Translations under genes and position numbers: made by a program | The notes under the pieces: model-generated | Databases searched by the model: none | Told to the model about the DNA's origin: nothing | What the model saw: the letters and a program-made list of their open reading frames with translations, nothing else | Assembly (NCBI RefSeq): GCF_028368935.1 | Contig: NZ_JAQNDK010000001.1 | Location: 2,170,001 to 2,234,000, forward strand | DNA from: Sorangium aterium | Lineage (GTDB): Bacteria > Myxococcota_A > Polyangia > Polyangiales > Polyangiaceae | DNA: 64,000 nucleotides | Direction of reading: 5' to 3' | In this document: positions 45,616 to 60,422 of the stretch, in pieces | How positions within the stretch are numbered: position 1 is the first letter of the stretch | Layout of the letters: each line of letters starts with the position of its first letter

Positions 45616-45762
45616 AACTCCAAACACGTCGGAGGCATCACGCGCCCATCGACGGTGCTCGTCGGCGATCACCGCCGTCCCCTTCGGACCGTAGCTGCGC
45701 ACGTGCGACGCGATGCGCACGCCGCCGTGCAACAGCTCCACGACGCGAGATTCCCTTGCCAA
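45616..45762 (-). mobile_element. Remnant of an IS21-type transposase (IstA C-terminal piece)
   Basis: A 49-codon minus-strand stretch reads RVVELLHGGVRIASHVRSY then ADEHRRWARD. This resembles the Mu-transposase-type C-terminal domain of IS21 IstA proteins (pattern VEVFHRGERVASHARS ... PEHMPKAH). No start, catalytic domain or IstB partner remains. It abuts the stop codon of the last gene of the glycan cluster, so it may mark an old insertion or recombination edge. Identification rests on motif memory only. Confidence 0.45.
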
Positions 45763-46617
45763 TCAGTAGCTCGGCGGCAGTGGGCACGCCCGCGGAGTCG
45801 TCGCGGTCGTGCGCTCCGCTGCCAAGAGCGAAAGGTTCTGCTCGATGCCAGGCAAGTGCGGATTGGCGTTGCAAGCGCGACGGTAGCTTGCCTCCGCGCT
45901 CTCGAGATTACCGAGCAGCTGTTCGACGGCGCCAAGGCTGGCGTGCGCCTCGGACAGCTCCGGAAAGAAGCCGGTGGCGCGGATGAAGGCTGCTCGCGCT
46001 TCGGTCAGCCGTAGCTGCCGGCGCCGTTCGTTGCCGACGTTGTATTCCACGACGCCCAGCACCTCGGATTGGCTGAGTGGACGCGCATATTCGCGCGCCG
46101 AGCCGCCCGGCACCGGAAAGCGCTGGCCGTACCACGCGTCCGGCATCGCCTCACCGGCGCGCAGCAGCTCCACGTTGCGCGCACCGCCCTGCTCCTGCGC
46201 CCGCACGTAGAAGTGCCCAGGCATCATCACCCCGGACGCCGAATAGCCGAGCGCGTCAGCCAGCGCGAGAAACAAGGTACCAAGGCCAACGCAGCTTCCG
46301 CGGCGGCGCTCCAGCACGCCGGGCAGGCACACGAAGGCCAGATTCGTGTCAGCCACTTCGCGCACGAAGCTCCAACGACCGAACAAGAGCTCACTCAACA
46401 CCGAAGCAGGTGAGCGCCGGGGCGACGAAGCGAGCGCGCTCTCCGCCTCGTCCACGAGACGCGAGAGCTCCGTCAGGCTCCAGGTCACCTGGCTCTCGTC
46501 GACAAAGGCGGTGTCACGGGCCAGGCCGATCAGGGCGCGGCCGAACGCAAGCTCTCGGCGCGGAGCGCGAAAGCAGCCGCTGCCCGCGAGCAAGAGCAGG
46601 AGCGCGCGGCGCTTCAT
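45763..46617 (-). CDS. SirB1/transglutaminase-like TPR lipoprotein
   Basis: 284 residues; ATG at 46617 overlaps the upstream stop by four bases (ATGA). Lipobox GSGC (Cys15). Residues ~90-160 resemble the SirB1/transglutaminase-like fold: LPGVLERRRGSCVGLGTLFLAL then SGVMMPGHFYVRA, with Cys (~108) and His (~134) in the catalytic positions and a possible third residue downstream. Two or three TPR helices complete the protein (~200-270). The family includes proteases and transamidating enzymes of the envelope as well as non-catalytic members. It is the last gene of the twelve-gene cluster; its target there is unknown. Confidence 0.8.
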   Translation of the reverse strand: MKRRALLLLLAGSGCFRAPRRELAFGRALIGLARDTAFVDESQVTWSLTELSRLVDEAESALASSPRRSPASVLSELLFGRWSFVREVADTNLAFVCLPGVLERRRGSCVGLGTLFLALADALGYSASGVMMPGHFYVRAQEQGGARNVELLRAGEAMPDAWYGQRFPVPGGSAREYARPLSQSEVLGVVEYNVGNERRRQLRLTEARAAFIRATGFFPELSEAHASLGAVEQLLGNLESAEASYRRACNANPHLPGIEQNLSLLAAERTTATTPRACPLPPSY

Positions 46618-48659
46618 GGCTTCTTCAGCGGCTCCCAGTCTTCCCAGTAGTTGTAGAGATCACGCGCCGTCATCATCCAGATGACCAGCTTCTTCGTGCC
46701 GAGCGCCTCGACGCTGCGGCGCAGCAGCTTTTGCCGCACGTTGGGGCCGCCGCCGTAGCTCATGACCAAGTCGAGCGGATACGCGATGCCACGCGCGAGG
46801 TGCGCCGAGACGCCAGCGTGCTCGGCGTCCGTCAGCTGATAAACGGCGGTGAAACTGTCGCCCAAGAGCACGACCGGGCTATCCGGGTCGTCGTCGTACG
46901 GCTTGCCGTCGGCCACGACCCGGTGCGCCACGAGCGTCTCAGGCGCGTACTTCTTCTGCTCGGCTTCCGGGAGTCGCGAATGCAGATCGCCGAAACGGGT
47001 GAAGCTGGTCTCGCGCAAGTCGTAAGCGCGCTTCTGCTTGGCGAGCTCGGCGTACCAGGGGTACTTCTTCACGCGGGTGGCCAAGAGGTCTGCGGCCAAG
47101 CGCAGCCCACGGTCGGTCCAGTGCGTGTCTTGGTGCTGGAACAGAAACGGCTCCGCCGCGCTCGTGACCTTTGCCTGCAGGAACGCCGGCAGCAGGTCCA
47201 CGATCTCCACGCCTTCCTTGCTGAGCCTTTCGATCAGCTTGCGGAACGCCGGATTGATGACCTGGCCCGAGAGCGCTGTGAAAGCGGGGTCCAACTTCTC
47301 CGGATACACCTCGAGCTTCGTCGGGACCGGCACGAACAGGAAGTCGACCCCCTGCTCGTCGAGCAGCTTCTTGAACTCGAGGATCACCGGCAGCGGGTTC
47401 TTTCCCTTGCGTTGCTGCTCGAGATCACCACCGCTGACGTATTCGAGGTCGTTGCGGTAGAACAGAAAGCCATCTCGCCCGGCCAGCGCCTTGACCTTCG
47501 GCGGCATGCCTTTGAGCCGTTTCTTCAGGGCGTCATGGGTCGGCGTGAGCTTGGCCATCCACATCGGCCAAGAGCCGCCCGCCTGGGCCAGCTCGCGCTG
47601 CACCGTCTCGAGCGCCGGCGCGGGGTTCGGCGACGGACGTGTCTTGCTCAGCCGAGGCGCCGGCTTCGCGGGCGCCGCGGCCGCGGGCGCCGCGCCTTCG
47701 CCACGCACCAGAAAGACGTTGTACGTGGCTTTGCCTTGCGGCTTGCCGCGCAGCACGATGGTCGGCGCCGGAAAAGCGCGCCCGCCCAGCTCTTGCTTGA
47801 TGTAGGGCTCGGTCTGCGCGTCCGGAAAGCTCGGTCCCGCCGGCATGAGATCGGTGTTGAAGGACGGGTACCAGTACGACGAGAGTTGGTTCGCCCAGGC
47901 CTTCACCTCGCTCGGCGACAGCACTGGCGCCACGTAGTCCTTCTGAATCGCAGCCACAAGCACGGGAGTGACGACGCCGGGCGCCACTCGGCCATAGAGC
48001 TCGGGAAAGCCGTCTCCGTCCTGATCGGCGGAGCCCGCAAAAGGCTTGAACCAAGGCTGAAACTCGACCTTGGCCCACAACTCCACTGCGCCCGACGCGG
48101 CCTGATGAACGAACACCTCGGTCAGGAGCTGGCCGGAGGTGCCGGGCGGCAACTGCAGGCCCCACCGCTCGCTGCGCACGGCTGAGCCAACCTCGGCCAG
48201 CGCTTCGGCCCCCGCGACCTTGTGCGCTTGCAAAAACTCCGACAGCGGCGCGAAAGCCAACGCTTGCTGCCGCTCGACCGGCGAGAGCGGCGTCTTCGCG
48301 AGATCGCTCGTCAGGCTGCCCTGGTCGAGCTGACCCGCGAACGCGTGCGAGGTATCGGGCGTGCCCGCAGCCGACATGGGCGTCTCTGGCTCCGGGTCGG
48401 CGATCATGAAGTTGCTGTGATAGGCGGCGTAGTCGAGCGCGGCGCGCGTCGGGACTGCCACCTCACGCACCCAGACCTGCGAGCGCGTCCGCGAATAGCC
48501 TTCGTTCAGCGTATGGACGTGAGCGTGTTCGACGCGCGTCCCGGCTCCCGCATCACCCCAGGGAAAGTTCGCGGACCCGGCGTGACAAGCAACAATGCCA
48601 GGCGCCGATGCGGCGGCGAGCAAGCCCCAGACCCCAAGTGCGCGCTTACGCTGCGTCAT
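46614..48659 (-). CDS. Large AlgX/AlgJ-like SGNH acetyltransferase-type protein
   Basis: 681 residues from the ATG at 48659, which overlaps the GT2 gene by 14 bases. A signal or lipoprotein start (SAPGIVAC) is followed by ~340 residues of unrecognised sequence, including a beta-rich part with DQDGDGFPELYGRV. After a Pro/Ala linker the C-terminal ~320 residues match the AlgX/AlgJ SGNH-like domain: DGFLFYRNDLEYVSGG, FLFVPVPTKLEVYPE, HQDTHWTDRG (catalytic Asp-His) and VVLLGDSFTAVYQ (catalytic Ser). In alginate systems this domain passes acetyl groups to the polymer in the periplasm after the MBOAT protein. All catalytic residues are visible. Confidence 0.85.
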   Translation of the reverse strand: MTQRKRALGVWGLLAAASAPGIVACHAGSANFPWGDAGAGTRVEHAHVHTLNEGYSRTRSQVWVREVAVPTRAALDYAAYHSNFMIADPEPETPMSAAGTPDTSHAFAGQLDQGSLTSDLAKTPLSPVERQQALAFAPLSEFLQAHKVAGAEALAEVGSAVRSERWGLQLPPGTSGQLLTEVFVHQAASGAVELWAKVEFQPWFKPFAGSADQDGDGFPELYGRVAPGVVTPVLVAAIQKDYVAPVLSPSEVKAWANQLSSYWYPSFNTDLMPAGPSFPDAQTEPYIKQELGGRAFPAPTIVLRGKPQGKATYNVFLVRGEGAAPAAAAPAKPAPRLSKTRPSPNPAPALETVQRELAQAGGSWPMWMAKLTPTHDALKKRLKGMPPKVKALAGRDGFLFYRNDLEYVSGGDLEQQRKGKNPLPVILEFKKLLDEQGVDFLFVPVPTKLEVYPEKLDPAFTALSGQVINPAFRKLIERLSKEGVEIVDLLPAFLQAKVTSAAEPFLFQHQDTHWTDRGLRLAADLLATRVKKYPWYAELAKQKRAYDLRETSFTRFGDLHSRLPEAEQKKYAPETLVAHRVVADGKPYDDDPDSPVVLLGDSFTAVYQLTDAEHAGVSAHLARGIAYPLDLVMSYGGGPNVRQKLLRRSVEALGTKKLVIWMMTARDLYNYWEDWEPLKKP

Positions 48660-49365
48660 AGCGACCTCGACGATAGTTCCACATCACTCGAAGCACCCGG
48701 AGCCCGTACGTCAGCGGGTTCAGGTGCGAGACCTCGTCCCCGTAGTGCGTGGGCACCGGCGCCTCGCCGACCGAAAGCCCACGCGCCCGCGCCGAGGCGA
48801 TGACCTCCAGATCGAAATCGAAGCTGTCAGACAAGTCGTGAAACGGCAGCGCTAGCGCGCGCGGCCCATAGAGAAGGTAGCCGCTGTGGTAGTCCGTCAT
48901 CGAGAGCGACAGCGTCCGGTTCTCGATGCGGTTCAGCAGCGCATTGCCGACGTACTTGTAGAGGGGCATACCCCCCTGCAAGGCCGTGCCCGCAGCGATG
49001 CGCGAGCCCTGCAGCAGATCGAGCCCGCGACGCGAAAGCTCCCCGATCAGCCCAGGCAAGGCCTCCGGCGCATACTGACCGTCGGCGTGGATACAGGCGA
49101 CCAGCTCCGGCGCATCGGCGCAAGCCCTGGCCAGACCGTCCTTCATCGCCGCACCGTAACCGCCGTTGTTGCGCCGCCGGACCAAGCTGAGGCGAAACGC
49201 CGACGAGCTGTAGCGCTCGACCCGACGGGCCGTGTCGTCGCGACTGCCGTCGTCGACGACCACCACGTGGGTGAGTCCCGACGAAGCCAAGCCGCCGACG
49301 CGCTCCAGCACCGACTCGATGTGCCGGGCAGCGTTGTACGCAGGGATGACGACCGTTACCTTCAT
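48646..49365 (-). CDS. Family-2 glycosyltransferase (polyprenyl-phosphate type)
   Basis: 239 residues. The ATG at 49365 is chosen (ATGA overlap with the upstream gene); the frame stays open upstream but without homology. The GT-A core is complete: VTVVIPAYNAARHIESVL, VVVVDDGSRDDT, GGYGAAMKDGLARA and HADGQYAPEALP (the D-x-D-type HADGQ metal site). The size, and the absence of C-terminal transmembrane helices, fit dolichyl/undecaprenyl-phosphate glycosyltransferases of the DPM1 type. Such enzymes make lipid-P-sugar donors for GT-C enzymes; a GT-C-like protein is encoded at 56264 in the same cluster. Sugar identity unknown. Confidence 0.9.
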   Translation of the reverse strand: MKVTVVIPAYNAARHIESVLERVGGLASSGLTHVVVVDDGSRDDTARRVERYSSSAFRLSLVRRRNNGGYGAAMKDGLARACADAPELVACIHADGQYAPEALPGLIGELSRRGLDLLQGSRIAAGTALQGGMPLYKYVGNALLNRIENRTLSLSMTDYHSGYLLYGPRALALPFHDLSDSFDFDLEVIASARARGLSVGEAPVPTHYGDEVSHLNPLTYGLRVLRVMWNYRRGRYDAA

Positions 49366-50441
49366 GCGGAGCTCGCGAGCTGGGAGAGCGAGGATGCCGC
49401 TGCGACGCGAGCGCCGTAGCGCTCGACGTAGTCGTGCACGATCGGCGGCAAGGAGGTGGCCAGGCGTCGCTGGGGCTTCCAACCGAGCAGTCGCTGCGCT
49501 TTCTGAACGTCCGGGATGCGTTCCTGCGTGTCGTCGTAGCCGGGGCCATAGAACTCGGCGGCCGACACCGCGCGAAACTGCGCAGGCGCGCGCTCGGGTA
49601 ACCGCTCAGCGAAAGCGTCGGCCAACAGCCGAGCGAGCTCCGCGATACTGACGTTATTGTCCGGATTGCCGATGTTGAAGATCTGACCTCTACTTTGCTT
49701 CGGCCGCTCGAGCACGCGGCACACGGCTTCGACCATGTCGCTCACGTCCATGAACGCCCGCCGTTGCGCGCCGCCGCCCACGAGCGGCAAAGGCTCCCCT
49801 CGCAGCAGCGCGCTCATGAAGCAGGCCAGTACGCGGGGTGTCCCCTCCCCGTCGATGCCGGGCAGGAAGTCCATGCGCGCGCCGATGGTGTTGAAGGGCC
49901 GAATGATCGTGAACGGCAACGCGCCGTGCTGACCGTGCGCCCAGATCACCCGCTCGAGCAGCTGCTTCGCGCACGAGTACGTCCAGCGCTCGCGCCCCAC
50001 CGGGCCGAGCAAGAAGCACGAGTCGTCCTCGTGCATACGCGCGGTCGGCAGCCCCTGCCCGTCCAGCGCGGTGCGCCCGTAAACCTCGGCGGTCGAGAAA
50101 TGGATCAAGCGCACGGCGCGCTCCGCGCAGCGCTTCACGAGCGGCAACAGGTGTGTGAAGCTGGCGTCGATGACCTCCAGCGGGATGGTCGAGTACTGGG
50201 CTGGGTTGCAAAGCGCCGTGAGCGAGATCACGACCTGACAGCGCTCGGTCACGTCCTCGACGAGCCCCGGCGCCTCGACGCGCGCCTCGATGCGCCGCAC
50301 GCGCGGGTCCCAACACTCGAGCTTGGTCAAATCCACGTCGACGGCGTCGACCTGGCAGGCAAAGCGTTCAAGCAAAGCCGGCACCAGGTGCGAGCCGATG
50401 AAGCCGCCCGCGCCGACCACGGCGATGCGCGTTTCCCTCAC
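49362..50441 (-). CDS. ArnA-type NAD-dependent epimerase/dehydratase-family protein
   Basis: 359 residues from a GTG at 50441 that overlaps the upstream stop (GTGA). Rossmann start IAVVGAGGFIGSHLVP (GxxGxxG). FSTAEVYG and the catalytic YxxxK in YSCAKQ are present. RPFNTIGARMD, GGGAQRRAFMDVSD and the C-terminal EFYGPGYDD then R-P pattern strongly resemble the C-terminal decarboxylase domain of ArnA and related UDP-glucuronate decarboxylases. Expected role: conversion of a UDP-hexuronate or similar nucleotide sugar into a 4-keto-pentose or pentose donor in the cytoplasm. The exact product needs assay. Confidence 0.87.
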   Translation of the reverse strand: MRETRIAVVGAGGFIGSHLVPALLERFACQVDAVDVDLTKLECWDPRVRRIEARVEAPGLVEDVTERCQVVISLTALCNPAQYSTIPLEVIDASFTHLLPLVKRCAERAVRLIHFSTAEVYGRTALDGQGLPTARMHEDDSCFLLGPVGRERWTYSCAKQLLERVIWAHGQHGALPFTIIRPFNTIGARMDFLPGIDGEGTPRVLACFMSALLRGEPLPLVGGGAQRRAFMDVSDMVEAVCRVLERPKQSRGQIFNIGNPDNNVSIAELARLLADAFAERLPERAPAQFRAVSAAEFYGPGYDDTQERIPDVQKAQRLLGWKPQRRLATSLPPIVHDYVERYGARVAAASSLSQLASSA

Positions 50442-51481
50442 GGTGAGCCACTCCCGGCGGACGGAATGAAGACGTCGGGCCAGCGATCATTGGCCGAGTT
50501 GTAGGTGAGGCGCGCGGCCTTCTCGGGCGGCGTGCCCACCTCCCACAGGTAAATCTCGTAGTCCGCGGTGTCGTGGTCGTGACCGCGCTGGGTGATGCCC
50601 CAGACCAGCCATTTGCCGTCGCGCGACAGCTGCGGGAAGTACTCGTGCGAGCGGCGACCCGGCAAGTCCATGAACTGGAGCTTGTCCAGGTCGACGTCCT
50701 TCGGCGGCGTGCCGTTATCGATCGGCATGCGCAGCACCCGGCTATCGCCGTTCCCGGTCGGGTGAACCCAGTAGATGGCCGTGTGATCCGGCGTCCAGTT
50801 CACCTGGCAGCCCAGCCCGGTCTGGGTCCAGGCCTTCTTGGCGATGTCCCAGATGCCGGTTTCGCGCTTCGAACCGCGCAGCGTGATGGCGAGGTACTTG
50901 CCGTCACTCGACAGCTCCGGCTGCTGCAGCAGGGCGCCGTCCAGCTCGGATACGCCCTCGCTGTCCATCAACTGCGTCTCTGCGCCGCTGCCGAGCTTGC
51001 TACGAAAGACCTTCGTGCCGCGTACGAACAGGATCTCATCCTCCGAAATCCAGCTACCCCAGCTCGCGCTCTCGACGACCTTCTTCGGCTCGGAGCCGTC
51101 CGGCTTGATCGTGTAGATGTCCCATTTGTCGCTGGCGTTGGCGTCGCGTTCGCTCACCCAGCCTTGTTTGCTGCGGCAAAACAGGATCTGCGCGCCGCTC
51201 GGGGAGAACCTCGGGAACCAGTCGACCTCGTCGCCCTTGGTGATCTGTTTGACGTCCGAGCCGTCGGTCTTCATCGTGAACAGGTCGTGATTGCCCACGC
51301 GGGAGCTGGACCAGACGATGGTGCCGTTGGCCTTCTCGCCCACCTCGCGCATCAGCGCGACGTCCTCCGCGGGCGGGGCTTCGTCGGCCCCCTTCGGGGG
51401 CTCGCCCGAAAAGGCCGAGCAGCCGAGCACAGCCGAGCAGCACAGATAACCCAATTGCCGCAGTGGGAAACGCAGGCTCAT
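50438..51481 (-). CDS. PD40/TolB-like propeller lipoprotein
   Basis: 347 residues from the ATG at 51481, which directly follows the TAG of the epimerase gene. Lipobox VLGC (Cys21). Repeats of the WD40-like PD40 type: IVWSSSRVGNHDLFTMKTDG, PRFSPSGAQILFCRSKQG, DIYTIKPDGSEPKKV, PELSSDGKYLAITL, PQLSRDGKWLVWG. These build a six-bladed beta-propeller like that of TolB. It is probably anchored to a periplasmic membrane face and may act as a scaffold for the modification machinery (inference). Known PD40 proteins bind proteins or sugars. Confidence 0.85.
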   Translation of the reverse strand: MSLRFPLRQLGYLCCSAVLGCSAFSGEPPKGADEAPPAEDVALMREVGEKANGTIVWSSSRVGNHDLFTMKTDGSDVKQITKGDEVDWFPRFSPSGAQILFCRSKQGWVSERDANASDKWDIYTIKPDGSEPKKVVESASWGSWISEDEILFVRGTKVFRSKLGSGAETQLMDSEGVSELDGALLQQPELSSDGKYLAITLRGSKRETGIWDIAKKAWTQTGLGCQVNWTPDHTAIYWVHPTGNGDSRVLRMPIDNGTPPKDVDLDKLQFMDLPGRRSHEYFPQLSRDGKWLVWGITQRGHDHDTADYEIYLWEVGTPPEKAARLTYNSANDRWPDVFIPSAGSGSP

Positions 51482-52441
51482 CTAATTTGTCCTTTCTCGA
51501 GCTTCACTCGCGCGGGGTGCGAGGGTGGCCGCCACGACGGCGGGTGAAGGGAAACAGCGACGCAACCCAGCGCGCACGCCGAGCGGCGCGTAGCCGAGGT
51601 CGTTCATGGCTTCGGTCGGGTCGAGGTCGGCGTCGTTGACGATGCCGGCTATCGCGCTCGAGGTGAGCGGGGGCCGCTTCATGAACACGGGGAGCACGGC
51701 TGCCAGCGCCCGGCACGCCCACACCGGCAGGTGCAAGAAGGGCCTAGGCCGATCGTGATGAAGCAGCAGCAGCTCCGCGAGCTCGCGCATCGAAATCACC
51801 TCCGCGCCGCTGAAGTTGTAGATTTTGCCGTGCGCGATCGGCGCATTGGCGAGCCGCACGAGGCCGTCGACGATATCCTCGGACCAAACGGGCCTTTTGA
51901 GCGCGCCCCCGGCGCCGATGAACGGCACCACCGGAAACCGCCGCAAGTAGTCGAGGAACATCAGGAGCTCCTGACCGCCGCCCTGCTCGTAAACCAGCGT
52001 GGGCCGCACGATCGTGTAGGTGAGCCCTGAGCCCTGGACGAGACGCTCGGCCTCGAGCTTGGACTCGGCATAGCGCGTGCGACGGGGGTAAACGACCGAG
52101 GCCGACGAGACGTACACGAAGTGCGGCACCCCCGCTTTTCGCGCCTCCGCAACGAGGTGCGCCGTGCCGTCGCGGTTGACGCGCTGAAACATCGTGGGGT
52201 CGTGGGTAATGATGATGGCGGCCAGGTGGTAGACGAGGTCGATGCCGCGACACACGCCGGCCAATGTGTTCGGATCGCTGATATCGCCTTCGCGCACGTC
52301 GCAGCCCAGCGCATCGATGCGCGCTCGCAACGGATCACCGGGCAGCACGAGCGCTCGCACTTGCCAGCCCGCTTTGCGCAGCCGCGCCGTCAAGCGGGCG
52401 CCCATCACGCCGGCGGCGCCAGTCACCAGGGCTGTCGGCAT
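51482..52441 (-). CDS. NAD(P)-dependent sugar epimerase/dehydratase
   Basis: 319 residues from the ATG at 52441, one base past the stop of the AlgJ/AlgX-like gene. Rossmann motif ALVTGAAGVMGARL, DLVYHLAAI, a YVSSASVVYP strand, and the active-site YAESK (Tyr-x3-Lys). IVRPTLVYE and PVWSEDIVDGLVRLA are typical of extended short-chain dehydrogenases acting on nucleotide sugars or 3-beta-hydroxysteroid-like substrates. The context favours a sugar-nucleotide substrate. It is distinct from the ArnA-type enzyme two genes downstream. Confidence 0.86.
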   Translation of the reverse strand: MPTALVTGAAGVMGARLTARLRKAGWQVRALVLPGDPLRARIDALGCDVREGDISDPNTLAGVCRGIDLVYHLAAIIITHDPTMFQRVNRDGTAHLVAEARKAGVPHFVYVSSASVVYPRRTRYAESKLEAERLVQGSGLTYTIVRPTLVYEQGGGQELLMFLDYLRRFPVVPFIGAGGALKRPVWSEDIVDGLVRLANAPIAHGKIYNFSGAEVISMRELAELLLLHHDRPRPFLHLPVWACRALAAVLPVFMKRPPLTSSAIAGIVNDADLDPTEAMNDLGYAPLGVRAGLRRCFPSPAVVAATLAPRASEARERTN

Positions 52442-52442
52442 C

Positions 52443-53750
52443 CTACGGAGCCCCCGCAGACTCGGGAGTCGGGAGATCCAGCGGAATCCAATCTCCGACC
52501 GACAGCTCGCGCGCAGCGAACTCCCAGACCACCACGCGCTTGCCCGCCAGGCGATCTTGGCCGGCCTTCAGCTCGCGCGCGAGCGCCTGGCGCGTAGCGA
52601 AGGCGCCGGAGTCGTTCTGCGCGATCACGTCGAGGGGGCGACCAAGCGCCAGGGCCAGGTGCGGGGCCAGGCCCGACGCATTGCCCCAGCCCATCCCCTC
52701 GAGCGTGAAGATGTTGGTGAAGCTGTCGCCGAGCAGGAGCACGTCGGCGCTCTCGTCAGGCTCCCAGGGGGTGCCGGCCGCGTCCTGCACCTGGTGCACG
52801 ACCACGCTCTCCGCTTGAAACAGGCTCTGATCGTCGGGCAGCTTGAGCATGTCGACCAGATCACCGACGCGCGAAGCCTGCTGCGGAACGCCGCGCATCA
52901 CGGGCTTCTCTGCCAGCTTTGGCAATACCCCAAGCCCGATCACGAGCTGGCCGAGGTCGGCGGCGATGCGCTCCATGTAGCCGGGCGTATAATGCGTATC
53001 TTGAGCGAGGAAGAGCGGCTCGGTACGGGGCTCAGGCACGCTGCGGCGCGCGTCGAGCACGGCCACGCCGGCGGCTCGAAGCTCGCTCAAGAAGCGGTCG
53101 TAGTCGACATTCTGCGCCATTTCGACGCGCCCATCACGCCCAAGAAGTGGACCAGGCTCGATCCCAGCCTTGTCCGGCATCGGCAGGACCACGAGGCGGA
53201 TCCCGCGTTGCGCGAGCGCTTGCTGGAACGCGAAGATGGCGGGTCGCGGATCCGGGTGGAGGGGCTCCTGGCCTGCGTCGAGGGCTTCCCTGGCGCGGCC
53301 CCGCAGCACCTCGGGCTCCAGGAATCCGGGCCCGCCGACGTGCAGCACACCGGGCGTGTAATAGAGCCAGCCGCCGTGTCCGACGACCGCGAGCTTGTTG
53401 CCCACACGACCTAGACGAGTGAGCAGCAGCTGCACGCGGGGCTGGACCCAGGCCTTGACGTACGAGGCATCCTCGATGCCCTTCTCGAGCTGACGCAGGT
53501 TCTCGGCCGTCGGTGGGCGGCGCACCAGATCCGCGAGAGGCGATTCCTCACCCTCGCTCTTCTCGAGGTAGGCCTGCGCGAGCGGAACAGCGTAGATCGC
53601 CCCCAGAAACAGCAGCGTGAGCAGCCAGGCCGCGCCGCGACTCACGTCGGTCGCGATGATACCGCGGCGCAGCTGCTCGTCGCCTGTGGGGTCGGTCGGA
53701 CCGCCGCTGCGTTCGATGGCGGAGGACGAGGGAGGCAAGGTACTTTGCAT
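52443..53750 (-). CDS. AlgJ/AlgX-like membrane-anchored acetyltransferase protein
   Basis: 435 residues from the ATG at 53750 (GAGG seven bases upstream). An N-terminal transmembrane anchor (~38-58: AAWLLTLLFLGAIYAVPLA) precedes a periplasmic SGNH-like domain: HGGWLYYTPGV, RLVVLPMPDKAGIEP, LFLAQDTHYTPGYM (catalytic Asp-His) and VLLLGDSFTNIFTLEG (catalytic Ser), ending VVVWEFAARELS. The family works with MBOAT proteins such as AlgI to O-acetylate exported polysaccharide. The MBOAT gene lies nine bases upstream, which makes the partnership very likely. A second, larger homologue is encoded at 46614. Confidence 0.9.
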   Translation of the reverse strand: MQSTLPPSSSAIERSGGPTDPTGDEQLRRGIIATDVSRGAAWLLTLLFLGAIYAVPLAQAYLEKSEGEESPLADLVRRPPTAENLRQLEKGIEDASYVKAWVQPRVQLLLTRLGRVGNKLAVVGHGGWLYYTPGVLHVGGPGFLEPEVLRGRAREALDAGQEPLHPDPRPAIFAFQQALAQRGIRLVVLPMPDKAGIEPGPLLGRDGRVEMAQNVDYDRFLSELRAAGVAVLDARRSVPEPRTEPLFLAQDTHYTPGYMERIAADLGQLVIGLGVLPKLAEKPVMRGVPQQASRVGDLVDMLKLPDDQSLFQAESVVVHQVQDAAGTPWEPDESADVLLLGDSFTNIFTLEGMGWGNASGLAPHLALALGRPLDVIAQNDSGAFATRQALARELKAGQDRLAGKRVVVWEFAARELSVGDWIPLDLPTPESAGAP

Positions 53751-53759
53751 CGCGCGGCC

Positions 53760-55217
53760 TCAGAACTGAAAGTACAGAAACGGGTTGATGGTCTGCGTCC
53801 ACATCACCAACGTCGCGAGCGCCATCGTGGCCGTCACGAACGCGGTACGTGGCAAGGACAAGCGCCGCGTGAGCTCCCAGCTGTTGGGCATGCCGAAGAT
53901 CACGACCGCGGCCAAAGCGAATAGCCCCACGTAGTACCGCGGGTGGAATGCGCCCGCCACGACGTCCGCCGCCGGCGAAACGGCGGCGAGCCCAAACAGT
54001 GAGCCCAGGTAGGTCACCGCCTGCTCAAGCGTCTTGGCGCGGAAGAACACCCACGACAAACACACGATCAAGAAGGTGAAGGCGACGCCGACAGCAGGTG
54101 GCAGGCGGCGCAGCGGGTGAGCTTTACCGAGCCTGCGCTCCACCCCGAGCATGCCACCGTGGATGCCGCCCCAGATGACGAAGTTCCAGCTGGCACCGTG
54201 CCAGAGCCCGCCGAGCAACATGACAGCCATCAAGTTGGCGTACGTGCGCAGGGGGCCTTTGCGGTTGCCACCGAGCGGGATGTACAAATAGTCGCGCAGC
54301 CACGTGGACAGGCTGATATGCCACCGCCGCCAGAACTCCGTGATGCTGCGCGACTTGTAGGGTGAGTCGAAGTTCTGGATCAGCACGAAGCCGAGCATCA
54401 GCGCCAAGCCCACGGCCATGTCTGAGTAGCCGGAGAAATCGAAGTAAATCTGGAACGCATAAGCTACCAGCCCGAACCACGCGTCATAGAAGTGCTTGGC
54501 GCCACCGGCGAACGCCGTATCGGCGATGTGCCCCATCGGGTTGGCCAGCAGAATCTTCTTACCCATCCCCAGCGAGAAGAACGCGACGCCGCGCGCAAAC
54601 TTCTCGAGCGTGTGCTGGCGCACGCGCATCTGCTCCTCGATCGCCGCATAACGGATGATGGGGCCCGCCACCAAGTCGGGGAAGAAGGCCTCGAAACACA
54701 TGTAGTCGGTGAAGCGCCGCATCGGTCGGGCGTCACCGCGGTACACGTCGATGGCGTAGCTCATCGCCTTGAACGTGTAAAAGGAGATGCCCACCGGCAA
54801 AACGACGTGCAAGACCGGCACGATCTGCGTCGAGCTGCCGAAGAGCGCGCCAAGCGCGTTGATGTTCTCGGCGACGAAGCCCGTGTATTTGAACGCCGCG
54901 AGCAGCCCGAGGTTGGTGACGATGGACGTCGCCAGCACCAGCTTCATCTGGCGGGTCCGCACGACCTCGGGGCCGATCACGGGCGGCAAGCCGTCGACGT
55001 CGGGCAGCCGTGACATCTTCAGAAGCAAGAGGCCGCACACGTAGTCGACGCTCGAGCCGAAGAACATGATCACGGCCCAGCTCGGGTTCGCCCAGCCGTA
55101 AAATACGTAGCTCGACACGGCGATGAGGGCCGTGCGGGCCCGGCCCGGCAGGGCGTAGTACGCGGCCAGTACCAGCGGCAAGAAGTAGAACAGGAAGATA
55201 TGGCTGGAAAAGACCAT
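53760..55217 (-). CDS. MBOAT-family O-acyltransferase (AlgI-like)
   Basis: 485 residues from the ATG at 55217. About ten transmembrane helices. Family motifs: MVFSSHIFLFYFLPL at the start, SITEFWRRWHISLSTWLRDYLYIPLGGN in the re-entrant region, and LLGGLWHGASWNF with the catalytic His. AlgI-type proteins take acetyl from a cytoplasmic donor and hand it across the inner membrane to a periplasmic SGNH protein. Two such proteins are encoded downstream in the same operon. Length is normal for the family. Confidence 0.95.
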   Translation of the reverse strand: MVFSSHIFLFYFLPLVLAAYYALPGRARTALIAVSSYVFYGWANPSWAVIMFFGSSVDYVCGLLLLKMSRLPDVDGLPPVIGPEVVRTRQMKLVLATSIVTNLGLLAAFKYTGFVAENINALGALFGSSTQIVPVLHVVLPVGISFYTFKAMSYAIDVYRGDARPMRRFTDYMCFEAFFPDLVAGPIIRYAAIEEQMRVRQHTLEKFARGVAFFSLGMGKKILLANPMGHIADTAFAGGAKHFYDAWFGLVAYAFQIYFDFSGYSDMAVGLALMLGFVLIQNFDSPYKSRSITEFWRRWHISLSTWLRDYLYIPLGGNRKGPLRTYANLMAVMLLGGLWHGASWNFVIWGGIHGGMLGVERRLGKAHPLRRLPPAVGVAFTFLIVCLSWVFFRAKTLEQAVTYLGSLFGLAAVSPAADVVAGAFHPRYYVGLFALAAVVIFGMPNSWELTRRLSLPRTAFVTATMALATLVMWTQTINPFLYFQF

Positions 55218-55226
55218 CTCAGCGAC

Positions 55227-56267
55227 TCACGGGGCCCACGGGCGCCAGCCCTTGTCCTTCATCGTCGCGAGCGCTCGTTGCACCCAGGTGCGATGGCCGT
55301 CCAGATTGAAGTGATGGTCGTCTTGCATGCCCACACCCTCGGCCGAGACGAGCGCGAAGTTCGACACCACGCTCGGGCACCTTTCGATCTCGGGACGGAT
55401 GGCGGTCGCCACGGCGCCGCCGACCACGAACTCGCCCGAGCCTTCCACCTCGTAGTCGTTCATCAATGCAGGCAGCGTGGGCTCGCCGACATCGTTGCGA
55501 ATGGCGGTCACGAGAGTATTGATGCATTCGGGAAAACCGGAGCGATCGGCGGCAGTACCGTGTCGCTCGGTGATCCCGAGATAGATGAAGATACCGCCGA
55601 AGGTCACCCGCCCCTTGATAGCCTTCGGGGCGGCGATCAGCTTGTCGTAGTAGAGGCCGCCCGGAACGAACTGGGAGCAGTAGGCCGAGGGCCACCCGAA
55701 TCCGAGCGAGATGAAGTAGTAGTCGGGCGCGAGCATCGCGGCTTCCTTGACCAGCGCCGTACCCGGCCCGCCGGCGTCGGTGTCACCCGCGGTTTTCGGC
55801 TCGATCGCGAGCTCCGGCGCCGAGCCAGGGTGGTACATGAAGGCGTGCGGATGGGTCTCCGTGAAATGGAACGGGCGTGAGCTCTGGGGCCTCGTGGCGC
55901 GACCGGCCATGTTGGAGTGACCGATGTGAATGAAGGCGATCGCGCGCTCCCTCGGGACGTCCACGCCTCCAAGGTTGATGGTCACGCCCGAAGGCGCCGG
56001 CCCACCGCCGGACCCCGCGTCGCTGGTCCCGCTGCTCCCGCCGCCGCCGCTCCCGCTCGCCGCGGTCATGACACCGCCGACCGAAGCTCCACCCGTGGTG
56101 GTCCCCGCTCCAGCGCCGCTCGAAGGCCCGAAGTCGTCCCCCGCCCCGACGGACTGCGTGTCGTGCGGATGCTCGGCGACCCCGCAGGCGAGCCCGCCGA
56201 CCAGCGCGAACAAGGAAACGAGCGCCCACCGAGACCTGGACAGGCTCACGTTGAGAAGTGGTTTCAT
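55227..56267 (-). CDS. SGNH acetylesterase-like lipoprotein
   Basis: 346 residues; ATG at 56267 overlaps the upstream stop (ATGA). Lipobox LACG/GLAC (Cys28), a long Gly/Ser/Thr-rich linker (~35-95), then an SGNH-type domain. The Ser block is IGHSNMAGRA, close to the GQSNMAG block of sialate/xylan O-acetylesterases. IFIYLGITERHG lies in the middle, and DDHHFNLDGHR near the C-terminus supplies Asp/His. Likely a periplasmic or outer-membrane de-O-acetylase acting on the same glycan that the MBOAT/AlgX-like proteins acetylate (inference). Gln-to-His in the Ser block is unusual. Confidence 0.82.
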   Translation of the reverse strand: MKPLLNVSLSRSRWALVSLFALVGGLACGVAEHPHDTQSVGAGDDFGPSSGAGAGTTTGGASVGGVMTAASGSGGGGSSGTSDAGSGGGPAPSGVTINLGGVDVPRERAIAFIHIGHSNMAGRATRPQSSRPFHFTETHPHAFMYHPGSAPELAIEPKTAGDTDAGGPGTALVKEAAMLAPDYYFISLGFGWPSAYCSQFVPGGLYYDKLIAAPKAIKGRVTFGGIFIYLGITERHGTAADRSGFPECINTLVTAIRNDVGEPTLPALMNDYEVEGSGEFVVGGAVATAIRPEIERCPSVVSNFALVSAEGVGMQDDHHFNLDGHRTWVQRALATMKDKGWRPWAP

Positions 56268-58246
56268 CGTCGACTCTCCTCCAAGTTCACCAAAATCCGC
56301 GTCGCTTCGGGGTCGAAAGGCCGGACGCGCAAGGCACGCCGTAGAAAGCCCAGGCCTTGCGCCGATTCGCCCCTTCGCAGGGCGATCAACGCCATGAGAT
56401 TCAGGCTCCCGACGTCGTCGTCCTGGGAAATCAGGCTCTGCCGGGCGAGCCGCTCGGCGGCATCGAGCTCACCCGCCGCGAAGCGAAGACGCGCTTCGAG
56501 GGCCCGGGCTTGCGGCGTGTCGAGGCTCGCGAGCGTACGCTCCGCTTGCTCGAACTGACCGAGCACGCCGTGCAACGTGGCCAGGCTCAGACGTGCCGCG
56601 GCGTGCACCTTTGGGGAATCCGCGAAGCGCTGCCCCAGCTGGACCAAGGTGCGGTCCGTCTCGCTGGCTTCACGGAACGGCTGCTCCGCGACGCCGGGCG
56701 TGAGGTCGCGGCGAGCAAACAGCACCTCCGAGCCGTCCGTGTAGAGTAGCTTCCAATCAGCGCTCGCGTAGAGGTGGCCAATCAAGCGCTGGTAGCGCTC
56801 GGGGAACATCACCGGCAAGACCACGTAGGCGAAGGAATGGCGCGCCTGAAAAGCTTCGAAACGCTCTGGCTCGTCCGCGAGCCTCAGGTATTCGGCAAAC
56901 TCGTCGGCGGTGCGCAACACGAGCCGAGTGTCAATGTACGGCCGAAACCGCGGATAGAGCCGCCAGATCAGGTAGCCTCCGTGATGATCGGCCGCAAAGA
57001 CGTCGCCCCCGGGCAGCGCGTCGAGGCGCGCAGCGCTCTCGGCCGGCACCCGGAACGGGCTCGGATCCGCCAGCGGCGGCTCGCGCGCCGCCGCCGACGC
57101 CGAGACGAGCAGCAGCGCGCTCAGGAGCACCGCGTTGAGACCCACCGCCACGCGCACGCCCGCGCGGCGAAAGCTCGAGACACAAAGCCGCCGGAGCGCC
57201 GGGGCCAGATTGACCGCGAAGATCGGCGCCACGACCCAGTACAGCAGGAGCACGTTGCGGTTGCTCATCAGCGCCAGCCCGGCGAAGCCGAGCAGCAGCA
57301 GCGCATGGCTCAGTCTCAAGCGGCGCCCGGCCAGGAGCACGGACAGAGCGAGCAGCGCCAAACACCATTTGAAGTGCCAGAACTCGCCGTCTGACAGGCG
57401 TTCGAGCTCGAAGGGCGGCAGGTTCTCCGCCACGTCGTGGGCGAAGACCTGGTGCTCGCCGGGCAACAAGCGCCCGAGCAGCAGCGCCGGCAACGCTGCG
57501 CCGCGCAAGCCAAACGGCGTGAGACACGTCGCCAGCAAACACCCCCCTAGCGTCGCGAACAGCTGCTGTACCCGCGCCCACGGTGCCAGCGCACCGGCGT
57601 GTTCGCGCGCAAACGGCCACGCACGCGTCTGGCCAAAGCTCGCCCAGCCGAGCGCCGCCACCGCGTACGCCGCGATCACCGCGGGGCCAAGCGCCGAAAG
57701 GCCCTGGAAATTCGCCCAAACCAGCTGCGCCAAGGGCAATAGCAGCAGGTGCCGGACCCGGCCGTCGCGCCGAAAGCGCTCGAGCGCGAACCAGAAGAAC
57801 GCGAGCAGGACGAGCGTGCCTATCACGGGCCGGACGAGCAAGAGCGAGCGAGCCGCCAGGAGCCCGCCGACCAGCGACGTCACGAGGAGCCCCCTCGCCC
57901 ACGAGCCGCGCCGCGCTTCGAGCGCGAAGTAGAGGAAGCCCGCGCCCAGGCCGATCAGCGCGCACTTGACCAGAACAAGCCCGACGAGGCCGACCGCCTG
58001 GTGCACCGCGTACACCGCGAGCTGAAAAAGCCAGTGCACGTCGACCCAGGCACGCCCTTGCGCGCTGACCGAGAAGGGATCGGTGAACAGGAGCCCACGC
58101 CGAGCGACCATTTCGCGACCTGCCGCGAGGTGCCACCAGATGTCACCGTCGGCCGAAGGCGCGAGCCCCGTCGAGGCCGCACCCAGGCCGAGCAACGCCG
58201 CGACGAGCGGCGTGCGATGGCGGAGCAGGGCGGCGACGGGCAACAT
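56264..58246 (-). CDS. GT-C-like polytopic membrane protein with C-terminal TPRs
   Basis: 660 residues from the ATG at 58246 (GAGAAG five bases upstream; a GTG at 58252 is the alternative). About ten transmembrane helices. The first extracytoplasmic loop has DGDIWWHLAAGREM, a DxD-type acidic motif in the position used by GT-C glycosyltransferases; the DGDxWWHLxxG block recurs in uncharacterised bacterial membrane proteins. A periplasmic part follows (YIDTRLVLRTADEFAEYLRL), then ~130 residues of TPR-like helices. It is the likely user of the lipid-P-sugar made by the cluster GT2. Acceptor unknown. Confidence 0.8.
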   Translation of the reverse strand: MLPVAALLRHRTPLVAALLGLGAASTGLAPSADGDIWWHLAAGREMVARRGLLFTDPFSVSAQGRAWVDVHWLFQLAVYAVHQAVGLVGLVLVKCALIGLGAGFLYFALEARRGSWARGLLVTSLVGGLLAARSLLLVRPVIGTLVLLAFFWFALERFRRDGRVRHLLLLPLAQLVWANFQGLSALGPAVIAAYAVAALGWASFGQTRAWPFAREHAGALAPWARVQQLFATLGGCLLATCLTPFGLRGAALPALLLGRLLPGEHQVFAHDVAENLPPFELERLSDGEFWHFKWCLALLALSVLLAGRRLRLSHALLLLGFAGLALMSNRNVLLLYWVVAPIFAVNLAPALRRLCVSSFRRAGVRVAVGLNAVLLSALLLVSASAAAREPPLADPSPFRVPAESAARLDALPGGDVFAADHHGGYLIWRLYPRFRPYIDTRLVLRTADEFAEYLRLADEPERFEAFQARHSFAYVVLPVMFPERYQRLIGHLYASADWKLLYTDGSEVLFARRDLTPGVAEQPFREASETDRTLVQLGQRFADSPKVHAAARLSLATLHGVLGQFEQAERTLASLDTPQARALEARLRFAAGELDAAERLARQSLISQDDDVGSLNLMALIALRRGESAQGLGFLRRALRVRPFDPEATRILVNLEESRR

Positions 58247-58255
58247 GACCACTTC

Positions 58256-59317
58256 TCAGAACGGTGAGACGGTGAAGCCGATGCCTGCCGTCCACGGCTG
58301 CAGGCTCGCGCCCTGGCTGCTGCTCTCGGCGCCGTCGACGACTCCGCGCTTGTCCCAGCCGAGCGGCAGCGACACGCCCCCCAGGATCGCCAGCCAGGCG
58401 TTCGACCACTCCACGGCGAGCGTGCCGGTGACTGCCCACAGCTGCACCTCCTGGTCAAGCCCACGGTCACGATCCGCACCGAAGAAATGCGACAGCGACA
58501 GGCCGAGCGACGGCACCAGCGGCCCCCAGAAATAGCCCGAGTAGCCGTAGATCGCGGCCGCCGGTGCGCGGTAGTTGCCCAGCTCGTTTTCCCCGCCGCG
58601 GTAGCCGAACGAGCCGCCCAGCACGATCAGCCCCCACGTCTTGTCGATCGTATGGTCGAGCGTCAGGCTGCCGCTCACCTTGCCAAGGCCAAGCTGCTTT
58701 TCCTGCGTGAGATAGTCGTTCTTGTACTGGGCGTCGTGCACGCCGGTCGGGACACCGACCTGCAACGTCAGGCTGGTAGAGTTGATCTCGCCGAAGCGCC
58801 GCGTGACGAACCCCGCGACGTCGCCCACGCCGGAGTTCGAGACGTCCACGGGCAGGCCGTAGTAGTCGCGGTAGTACTTGTAGAGCAGCGGAACCACGAG
58901 CCCCACATTCCATTTCTCGTTCAAATTACGCGAAACTTGAGGGCTGAGGCTGAGGTTGTAGCCGTCGTCCAGGTGAGTGTACGTGCCGAGTGTTTGCTGC
59001 TCGAATAGCCCCCCGGTCACGCTGTGGCCGATCCACTTGATTCCGCCCCCCGCGCCCGTGGAGCTACCGGCTCCGCAGCCGCCGATCGTCTCCCAGCTCG
59101 AGAGCAGGCCTTCCAGCCGTGAAACTCGTAAAGACAGCGCTGGTCCGAGCTCGGCGAGCGCGTCGCCTCGCTCGCCGAGAGTCGCCTCCAGGCGGGCCAC
59201 TCGCGCATCGTTTTGCCGAGCCGCGCGCTCGGCCGCAATGAACGGAAAGCTGGCGACCGCGGCCAAACCACATGTGACCAGCCAGGCGCCCGGGACACGT
59301 AGTCGTCTGAAGTTCAA
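58256..59317 (-). CDS. Outer-membrane beta-barrel protein
   Basis: 353 residues. The TTG at 59317 is chosen because GGGAGAAA lies five bases upstream and a signal peptide follows (VPGAWLVTCGLAAVASFPF); the frame is open to 59368. A short coiled-coil-like segment (~28-70) precedes alternating strands with aromatic girdles (GYNLSLSPQVSRNLNEKWNVGLVVPLLYKYY, SLTLQVGVPTG, LSLSHFFGADRD), and the protein ends in Phe, the outer-membrane sorting signal. It resembles the transporter/MetA-like barrels. It could export or anchor the glycan product, or sense it; direct evidence is lacking. Confidence 0.78.
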   Translation of the reverse strand: MNFRRLRVPGAWLVTCGLAAVASFPFIAAERAARQNDARVARLEATLGERGDALAELGPALSLRVSRLEGLLSSWETIGGCGAGSSTGAGGGIKWIGHSVTGGLFEQQTLGTYTHLDDGYNLSLSPQVSRNLNEKWNVGLVVPLLYKYYRDYYGLPVDVSNSGVGDVAGFVTRRFGEINSTSLTLQVGVPTGVHDAQYKNDYLTQEKQLGLGKVSGSLTLDHTIDKTWGLIVLGGSFGYRGGENELGNYRAPAAAIYGYSGYFWGPLVPSLGLSLSHFFGADRDRGLDQEVQLWAVTGTLAVEWSNAWLAILGGVSLPLGWDKRGVVDGAESSSQGASLQPWTAGIGFTVSPF

Positions 59318-59340
59318 TCGAGTTTCTCCCGAGCGCAAGG

Positions 59341-59790
59341 TCAAGCTGGGTCGACCTGGAGGCACCAATAGCGAACGCTCCCGCGATCCGTAGCGGCATA
59401 TTCGTCTACGAGTGCACCTTTCCAGATGGCTTTCAGATCAGCCGTCAACTTCATCGTGTGAACGTCGCCTTGGTTGAAGCTGCGCAGCTTGCCGCCGACC
59501 TGCTCCTTCATTTTGTCCTTGATCTTGGAGCGCGGCACGAGCGGCTTGTAGTGCGCGACAAGGATGAACTGCTTGTCGAGCGGCCCGCCCTGGACCTGGT
59601 AGCGCATCACGTAGGCGTAATCGTACAGGTCATCGGGGGGCATCTTGGAGGGAATTTCAACGAGCTTTGCCGTCAATTCCAGGGGTGCCACCCCGTCCGC
59701 CCGGGCGCTCCGCTCGACACCGGCTACGGCGAGCAGCAGCATGCTCATAAACGCTTGGCGACCAAAGTGGCGTCGGCTCGAATGCATCAT
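59341..59790 (-). CDS. Exported protein with Tat-like signal, first gene of the cluster
   Basis: 149 residues from the ATG at 59790 (a second ATG follows directly). The N-terminus MMHSSRRHFGRQAFMSMLL has a twin-arginine SRRHF motif before a hydrophobic core cut near ARA, suggesting Tat export as a folded protein. The mature part is beta/alpha mixed: APLELTAKLVEIPSKMPPDD, YDYAYVMRYQVQGG, HYKPLVPRSK, GDVHTMKLTADL. No family named. It leads the minus-strand operon, and its stop lies 23 bases before the barrel gene start. Confidence 0.7.
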   Translation of the reverse strand: MMHSSRRHFGRQAFMSMLLLAVAGVERSARADGVAPLELTAKLVEIPSKMPPDDLYDYAYVMRYQVQGGPLDKQFILVAHYKPLVPRSKIKDKMKEQVGGKLRSFNQGDVHTMKLTADLKAIWKGALVDEYAATDRGSVRYWCLQVDPA

Positions 59791-59952
59791 CGTCGAAGAA
59801 TAGGGCGAGAAAGGTCGATCTCGCAACAAGGCACGCGCCGATTCTCGAAATGAAGCAACCCACGCCGGAGATCGCTCCAGGCTGTCGGCATCTTTCCACC
59901 GTGAGGGCAGCACCACCGCTGGTAATTTACGGCGGGGTGCGCGAGAGCCGCC

Positions 59953-60096
59953 ATGGTGACCGAGCCAAGCAGCATCGCCCGCTTCCTCTCCGCGCTCGGC
60001 GAGCCGACCGACGTTCCTGGTCGCTCACCCGACCGGGGACCGCCGTACTGGAAGAACACCGTCCTGCGCCACAAGGCGCTCGGCGACGCCGCGTAG
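59953..60096 (+). mobile_element. Probable transposase 3' fragment
   Basis: A 47-codon frame reads SIARFLSALGEPTDVP then RSPDRGPPYWKNTVL and ends in TAG. It resembles the C-terminal end of IS91/IS801-like or related transposases (helical block ending LGLPT/LGEPT followed by RGPP). An in-frame stop lies nine codons before the ATG, so no upstream catalytic part remains. Identification is from motif memory and should be searched. Confidence 0.35.
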
Positions 60097-60422
60097 CGCA
60101 TCGCGACAACATCCCGGGCCAGATCAACGCCCGGAGGGCGAGGTGTGCCCGCGGCACGCCGACGCGCCCCTTATCTCGCTCTGCGCCGGCTGCCGTAGGA
60201 AGATCCTCGCGGATCAGGAGCGGCCTTAGGCCAAGGTGACCCTCATAGGGATCAACCCGATCGGTAGCTCGTTCATTGAGGCGCTGCCCGACCTCTCCGG
60301 CCGATTCCGGATCATCCAGATGGCTCACCAGAAGGACGTCAAGATCGCCGAGCTGATCATCAAAGGAGAGCAAGCGGCGAACATCCGATTCACGCATCGC
60401 GATGAGCTCATCACGGTGCGAC

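Follow-up and report, generated by a model that had tools for sequence, protein, structure and literature searches.

The twelve-gene block at positions 45763-59790 of a stretch of Sorangium aterium DNA raises the question of which surface product could be made by genes for O-acetylation combined with genes of a sugar-nucleotide route. The stretch, referred to as the window, comprises 64,000 nucleotides (assembly GCF_028368935.1, contig NZ_JAQNDK010000001.1, positions 2,170,001 to 2,234,000) of a 13.47-Mb genome from the same genus as G004, Sorangium cellulosum So0157-2. All twelve genes are collinear on the minus strand and were numbered from g1 at the 5' end to g12. An original prediction, made from the letters alone, took them for a system that attaches a sugar derived from a lipid-phosphate (lipid-P) sugar to a surface acceptor and tunes its acetylation. 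After our analysis, the block is probably a laterally mobile envelope-glycan operon of two modules, one leading from a UDP-pentose via a polyprenyl-phosphate sugar and a GT-C transferase to an envelope acceptor, the other serving O-acetylation.

Gene content and conservation

From g1 to g12, the junctions measured 23, 3, -4, 9, 9, 1, 0, -4, -4, -14, and -4 bp; all 11 lie below 25 bp and four are 4-bp overlaps, which bears out the tightly packed operon of the prediction. The start of g2 is most likely TTG 59317, 23 bp past g1, with GGGAGAA upstream. Searches of the twelve proteins against Pfam and NCBIfam revealed, above cut-off, MBOAT (PF03062, 108.9 bits in g5; cut-off 27), GT2 (PF00535, 84.2 in g10), ALGX (PF16822) in two genes (87.9 bits in g6, 102.1 in g11), SASA (PF03629, 45.5 in g4), Transglut_core2 (PF13369, 62.4 in g12), and PD40 (34.8 in g8), together with two epimerase-type short-chain dehydrogenases/reductases (SDRs; g7 and g9). 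No family was found for g1, g2, or the membrane part of g3, in which TPR alone was detected. Thus, the predicted MBOAT, two AlgJ/AlgX-like, esterase-like, GT2, two sugar-nucleotide, PD40, and SirB1-like proteins were recovered, and the barrel (g2) and the GT-C protein (g3) remained without a confirming family match. As had been predicted, no polymerase, Wzx, Wzy, or Wza family rose above cut-off in any of the twelve. Lipoprotein-type signals were found by sequence in g4, g8, g11, and g12, and Cys109 and His135 of g12 are invariant in all 11 aligned rows. The alignment of g1 (10 rows, including a Fibrobacteria locus) showed 37 invariant columns, and comparison with solved structures gave one match (E 0.13). 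A "Tat-like" character, once proposed for g1, was rejected as a family trait, as the twin Arg occurs in four of the 10 rows (the window, L025, L029, and L032) and is absent from six.

Among 108 genomes of the family, g11 was found in five, namely the genome of the window, one of five other members of the genus, and three members of one other genus. In all four other genomes (So0157-2 and three Polyangiaceae-type metagenome-assembled genomes, MAGs), the twelve genes are collinear, so that the order is kept in other myxobacteria, the check that the prediction itself had proposed. Protein identity to the window amounts to 93-99% in So0157-2 and 48-82% in the other three. Between the window and So0157-2, the ratio of nonsynonymous to synonymous substitution rates (dN/dS) ranged from 0.05 to 0.42 over all twelve genes (0.20 overall), and all of them are under purifying selection. 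Based on this shared order and these ratios, the gene set is not a chance assembly. A search with g3 gave matches in eight of 97 relatives, full-length and close only in the genome of the window and in G004; for the three operon-bearing members of the other genus, none was listed there.

Scanning named genomes with a g8 alignment, by which loci lacking g8 are not detectable, resulted in 14 loci, from So0157-2, from MAGs titled Myxococcota, Myxococcales, Polyangiaceae, and Proteobacteria, and from one Fibrobacteria MAG; four genomes occur in two collections, as L021-L024 and as L025-L028. By tblastn, all twelve proteins were recovered in six of the 14 loci, four of them collinear and two, from further myxobacterial MAGs (L029, in which g3 is cut by the contig end, and L032), rearranged. 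Ten genes were detected in L031, nine in L034, and four or five of g8-g12 in L030, L033, L035, L037, and L038, several of which run into a contig end; upstream of g8, different genes are found in L030, L033, and L035. The Fibrobacteria locus L036 holds six of the twelve (g1, g2, g4, g5, g6, and g8) and lacks g3, g7, and g9-g12. The scattering of homologues that would have spoken against the prediction was therefore not seen in the close set, though the block is inverted or split in L029 and L031-L036. Genes g9 and g10 accompany the block in 13 of the 14 loci. After coarse clustering of open reading frames (ORFs), the only recurrences of genes outside the twelve were between related loci (L026 with L027, L033 with L037), duplicates inside a single locus, or shadow frames on the antisense strand. 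When the phylum was sampled evenly, three of 377 genomes, that of the window included, contained g8, and the unit is thus rare.

Table 1. Genes of the operon and extent of the mobile block (window coordinates)
Feature	Position	Strand	Description
g1	59341..59787	-	Secreted, 148 aa, without a known family; opens the operon; 59790 with upstream ATG
g2	58256..59317	-	N-terminal anchor/signal and ~270 residues; probably outer-membrane barrel (inferred)
g3	56264..58252	-	Multiple transmembrane (TM) helices, DGDI.WHL motif after helix 1, C-terminal TPR; putative GT-C transferase
g4	55227..56267	-	Lipoprotein-type; SASA (SGNH) carbohydrate acetylesterase domain
g5	53760..55217	-	MBOAT O-acyltransferase; C-terminal acyl-shuttle motif FLYFQF
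g6	52443..53750	-	AlgJ/AlgX-type SGNH O-acetyltransferase; one N-terminal TM helix; DTH and GDS conserved
g7	51482..52441	-	Extended SDR, HpnA/OleD-like; probably sugar-nucleotide or lipid-linked-sugar enzyme (inferred)
g8	50438..51481	-	PD40/TolB-like beta-propeller lipoprotein; one of the best-conserved members
g9	49362..50441	-	SDR of the UDP-glucuronate decarboxylase type; sister to the UDP-apiose/UDP-xylose synthases
g10	48646..49365	-	Soluble GT2; polyprenyl-phosphate sugar synthase-like (DPMS/ArnC/PpgS)
g11	46614..48659	-	Lipoprotein-type; N-terminal 350 residues and AlgJ/AlgX-type SGNH domain
g12	45763..46617	-	Lipoprotein-type; SirB1-like transglutaminase-core domain and TPR
Mobile block	45745..60190	.	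Common to So0157-2, 96.4% DNA identity (blastn, 14,447 columns)

The acetylation module

In g5, residues H300, H340, H353, and Y482 are invariant in all 11 rows, which include the second MBOAT protein of this genome. Its C-terminal end fits the acyl-shuttle hexapeptide FXYXXF, again in 11 of 11 rows. According to the available part of PMC12148441, PatA acetylates the equivalent Tyr of this motif and then hands the group to its SGNH partner. The triad residues of such partners, as described in the accessible text of PMC4148444, are kept in g6 and g11, where D-T-H and the Ser of GDS/SDS were found in 10 of 10 rows each. In a fold search, the C-terminal domain of g11 aligned with AlgJ (4o8v) at Z 24.4 (root-mean-square deviation, rmsd, 2.8; 261 residues aligned), with AlgX at Z 22.1 (rmsd 3.4, 273), and with PatB1 at Z 15.5 (rmsd 3.4, 242), and its modelled fold is AlgJ-like; the N-terminal ~350 residues were barely covered. 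While g6 was assigned by its PF16822 match, g11 was assigned by the fold as well. In g4, a GHSNM block and DDHH are invariant in 8 rows. Altogether, it is well supported that the acetylation half of the operon holds an MBOAT-SGNH acyltransferase pair, and the predicted acetylation machinery is supported by motifs and fold. By their motifs, g5, g6, and g11 can be read as an acetyl relay and g4 as its eraser.

The second MBOAT gene of this genome (L080:7922-9409, contig G000:C2) ends in FVYFQF and lies about 1.8 kb from a SirB1-like gene with 31% identity to g12. No ALGX-type match was found among its called neighbours.

MBOAT, SGNH transferases, and an esterase also form the Pat/Ape set. All three kinds occur in the operon, and the likeness of g11 to PatB1 would fit a PatA/PatB-like cluster for O-acetylation of peptidoglycan with bystander genes. 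We consider this very unlikely, as g11 is clearly nearer to AlgJ and AlgX and the supposed bystanders g9 and g10 travel with the block in nearly every locus of the scan.

The proposed sugar route

The solved relatives of g10 are headed by dolichol-P-mannose synthase (DPMS) and ArnC. Its best NCBIfam model is PpgS (72.7 bits against a cut-off of 370), so that equivalog cut-offs were missed, and models of polymer synthases such as PgaC were also far below cut-off (49 of 422 bits). By sequence, g10 is thus a soluble GT2 enzyme nearest to the polyprenyl-phosphate sugar synthases DPMS, ArnC, and PpgS. In another myxobacterium (L077:8586-16098, contig G274:C12), genes similar to g9, g10, and g7 (41, 48, and 53%) follow one another and lead up to a TPR-bearing PMT_2 GT-C protein and a PD40 protein; none of the ORFs called in this 18-kb stretch matched g5, g6, or g11. 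The arrangement shows these predicted sugar genes as a module with a GT-C, in line with the lipid-P-sugar route that had been predicted. The modules are separable, as sugar genes occur without acetylation genes in L077 and six genes of the acetylation side and envelope without sugar genes in L036. It is mainly on the ground that the sugar genes of L077 adjoin a PMT_2 protein with TPRs in the place of g3 that we call g3 a putative transferase. When the g3-family profile was compared with the GT-C of L077, the TPR part alone was aligned. Among five relatives of g3 (L005-L007, L009, and L010), Pfam gave no GT-C family in any and NCBIfam none in four. The fold lists of g3 shown by Foldseek and VIA-align held TPR and other helical-repeat proteins and no GT-C row, which is no evidence against a GT-C. 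Elsewhere in the genome, two of three matches to UDP-glucose dehydrogenase-type genes were over cut-off.

A special form of this route would be the decoration of lipopolysaccharide or protein with a single sugar, similar to the Arn (ArnA-ArnC-ArnT) or Pgf (PgfE-PgfS-PgfM) routes, followed by acetylation of that residue or a neighbour. The series g9, g10, and GT-C parallels the logic of the ArnA dehydrogenase, ArnC, and ArnT, NCBIfam models of ArnC and PgfS were listed for g10 (both far below cut-off), and L077 offers such a gene set with PMT_2 and no acetylation genes among its called ORFs. On the other hand, no aminotransferase, formyltransferase, or deformylase was found in Pfam or NCBIfam for the twelve, and the two SGNH proteins together with a PD40 lipoprotein suggest a larger glycan. 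We regard single-sugar decoration as plausible and would wager only somewhat against it.

A larger product could also be a secreted polymer of the alginate kind. Emb transferases polymerise from decaprenyl-P-arabinose, and g3 might likewise polymerise a lipid-linked pentose in the periplasm, with g11, g6, and g5 acetylating the chain in transit and g12 and g2 acting like AlgK, a TPR scaffold, and AlgE. The set of roles is indeed alike (MBOAT, two SGNH proteins, the TPR lipoprotein g12, the putative outer-membrane protein g2, and the small secreted g1). However, g2 offers just ~270 residues after its anchor, neither a pore role of g2 nor processivity is supported, the main domain of g12 is SirB1-like, and the twelve do not include Alg8/Alg44, the polymerase pair. 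This makes such a polymer unlikely. An alginate operon proper was rejected, since Alg8/Alg44 and the mannuronan enzymes were not listed for the twelve proteins in Pfam or NCBIfam, the rest of the genome not having been searched for them.

Phylogeny of g9 and the nature of the pentose

The nearest solved relative of g9 is the UDP-apiose/UDP-xylose synthase of Arabidopsis (291 bits), followed by ArnA (216) and the human UDP-xylose synthase UXS (87). Its identity of 43.7% to the Arabidopsis enzyme falls inside the range of 43-49% given for bacterial UDP-apiose synthase (bUAS) homologues in the available part of PMC5607165. According to Table 3 of PMC12820599, as far as this paper was available, the apiose enzyme is distinguished by Cys100 from both ArnA and human UXS, which have Ala. 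The position of this ring-opening cysteine is occupied by Cys in all 14 g9 orthologues; among 15 other rows, seven have Cys, seven Ala (including ArnA and U4kpxs), and one Val. The positions of Tyr105, Thr139, Glu141, Arg182, Tyr185, Lys189, Asn214, and Arg341 are kept in 14 of 14 g9 rows. At the position of Cys140, 10 of the 14 g9 rows have Cys and four, including the window, have Ala. The bUAS-type rows L050-L052 combine Cys100 with Ser140, and L044 and L055 have Cys at position 140 but Ala at position 100; therefore, position 140 appears to vary and not to be diagnostic of apiose synthases. In this comparison, L052 was tied to the published Yangia sequence via the accessions of its neighbours rather than through sequence matching, and it does not belong to the assayed enzymes; the E. 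coli ArnA row is a crystal mutant with Ala at position 140, for which the available Table 3 of PMC12820599 gives Ser.

In the trees, g9 formed a clade with the plant and bacterial UDP-apiose synthases (support 89/93 with 29 rows; 97/95 with 26 rows, three distant rows being left out), as a sister to and not inside the known enzymes. Approximately unbiased (AU) tests gave p-AU 0.043 when g9 was forced with ArnA/U4kpxs and 0.023 when it was forced with L044/L055. Thus, g9 as an ArnA dehydrogenase or U4kpxs is disfavoured, both by Cys instead of Ala at position 100 and by the first of these tests. Taken together, alignment and trees point to a UDP-apiose/UDP-pentose synthase, whereas the prediction had left the sugar unnamed.

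Nevertheless, the product of g9 might be UDP-xylose or a UDP-4-keto-pentose instead of UDP-apiose, the remainder of the two-module route being the same. For this speak the Ala at the Cys140 position in four g9 rows, that of the window among them, and the fact that UDP-xylose is also made by apiose enzymes. Against it speak the cysteine shared by all orthologues at position 100, the low p-AU of g9 held with ArnA/U4kpxs, and the variation of position 140, which is Ser in bUAS-type rows. We give the non-apiose product nearly an even chance. The most specific version remains tentative and is rather doubtful in all its parts at once: UDP-apiose would be loaded on polyprenyl phosphate, and beyond the inner membrane an O-acetylated apiosyl glycan would be assembled or attached by the GT-C, the whole being encoded on a mobile operon of Sorangium and further myxobacteria.

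Further relatives of UDP-apiose synthases were detected in two genomes of the same phylum (L043, L045, and L048; G149 and G158). They carry Cys at both position 100 and position 140 and group with bUAS, and their neighbourhoods held no further match to the twelve proteins.

Mobility and borders

In So0157-2, the flanks of the window are found at 9.436-9.449 Mb, about 4 kb apart, and the operon at 1.93-1.94 Mb. In G005, a genome without a g3 or g11 match, a single contig carries both flanks (window up to 45609 and from 60690) at a distance of only 138 bp, which represents an empty site. Synonymous divergence (dS) between the window and So0157-2 was 0.065-0.126 for the operon against 0.18-0.31 for the few control pairs, which comprised two flank genes, one of them of a tandem EGF/FG-GAP family whose orthology is unsure, and a PF03721 pair; L082/L083 were left out, as their longest open frame was not the right one and dN was above dS. 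With so few controls, the low dS fits exchange after the lineages had split. Altogether, the operon is a laterally mobile unit. Its left (3') border, at 45653-45749, consists of a dispersed repeat, of which copies were listed in G001 and G004; the repeat showed a weak, sub-threshold match to the C-terminal model of a Mu-type (IstA-like) transposase (16.2 bits against a cut-off of 27). Another dispersed repeat of ~77-89 bp at 60102-60188 marks the right (5') border and occurs in all five genomes of the genus that were searched. In So0157-2, a gene with an integrase core lies upstream of g1.

Outside the block, window positions 42051-44255 encode a secreted protein of the EGF-like plus FG-GAP kind. 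It belongs to a family that is repeated at the flanking site and has more than one copy in So0157-2.

Proposed mechanism

From the observed gene order, selection, domain families, active-site motifs, g9 phylogeny, and AlgJ-type fold of g11, we infer the following reactions, together with the acceptor, the flipping step, and the identity of the added with the acetylated sugar. Starting from UDP-glucuronate, g9 would form a UDP-pentose, namely UDP-apiose (the branch favoured by its relatives), UDP-xylose, or a keto-pentose, and g7 may act as a reductase or epimerase on the sugar while it is linked to the nucleotide or to the lipid. The pentose would be transferred to polyprenyl phosphate by g10 and, after flipping, passed on from this lipid by g3 to an acceptor in the periplasm or at the surface. 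In the second module, g5 would transfer acetyl from acetyl-CoA to Tyr482 of its shuttle peptide, from which the membrane-anchored g6 and the lipoprotein g11 would pass it to the glycan; g4 could remove it again. The remaining g1, g2, g8, and g12 are probably envelope accessory proteins.

Several points weigh against this scheme. Neither g3 nor its relatives gave a GT-C family match in Pfam, the structural model of g3 is weak (pLDDT 64, pTM 0.47), and no flippase or polymer-export protein was identified. The g9 of the window has Ala at the Cys140 position, and the AU rejections are modest (0.02-0.04) and compare groups that were named after the first tree. The g9-like enzyme of L077 has Ala at position 100 despite alike neighbours, so that the sugar may differ between clusters. 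Finally, L036 keeps its six genes without the sugar genes; hence, the acetyl side can serve another glycan. There (L036:4425-13654), the set consists of g1, g2, g4, g8, g5, and g6, with a second PD40 protein beside g2 and a 795-aa gene upstream.

Comparison with known systems

Common to PatA/PatB, AlgI/AlgJ/AlgX, and the operon are an MBOAT protein with FXYXXF and an invariant His and SGNH proteins with D-x-H and Ser; WssH/WssI is a further MBOAT-SGNH system for O-acetylation. Compared with these, the operon has two SGNH proteins, one of them (g11) of the lipoprotein type with an N-terminal part of 350 residues, and is linked to a lipid-P-sugar route, not to a polymerase. With the alginate operon it shares MBOAT, AlgJ/X-type proteins, a TPR-bearing lipoprotein, and a putative outer-membrane protein, but for none of its twelve proteins was a match to Alg8/Alg44, AlgG, AlgL, AlgD, or AlgA listed in Pfam or NCBIfam.

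On the sugar side, mycobacterial PpgS with its GT-C forms another lipid-P-sugar route. The Arn, Pgf, and PpgS routes, as generally known, have in common with the operon a UDP-glucuronate decarboxylase-type SDR (Arn), a lipid-P-sugar GT2, and a GT-C-like protein. In contrast to them, the operon has a decarboxylase of the UDP-apiose branch, the extra SDR g7, and no amino-sugar genes, and its g3 is without a GT-C family match. Apiose is known above all as a sugar of plant cell walls. The bacterial UDP-apiose synthases share the equivalent of Cys100 with g9, which groups with L050-L052 and the plant enzyme. In the available parts of PMC5607165 and PMC6193724, apiose is reported in two bacteria, and the apiose operon of Xanthomonas pisi includes GT90 and GT2 enzymes using UDP-apiose and UDP-xylose. 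No conserved operon around bUAS is reported by the authors in these parts; by comparison, the neighbourhood of g9 is conserved across genera.

A literature search on apiose in myxobacteria, on lipid carriers and surface glycans, and on Sorangium polysaccharides gave, among the papers listed, nothing recognisable as this operon. If the apiose reading were true, neither a lipid-linked apiose nor a conserved apiose operon would, judged by this search, have been described before. The operon would give a concrete and testable route to a surface glycan of soil myxobacteria, and it shows modules for acetylation and sugar recombined and moved as a block. Its parts are of known kinds; the novelty, as judged by the same search, lies in one mobile unit that unites in fixed combination a UDP-apiose-branch enzyme, a synthase for a lipid-P sugar, a GT-C-like protein, and MBOAT/SGNH machinery.

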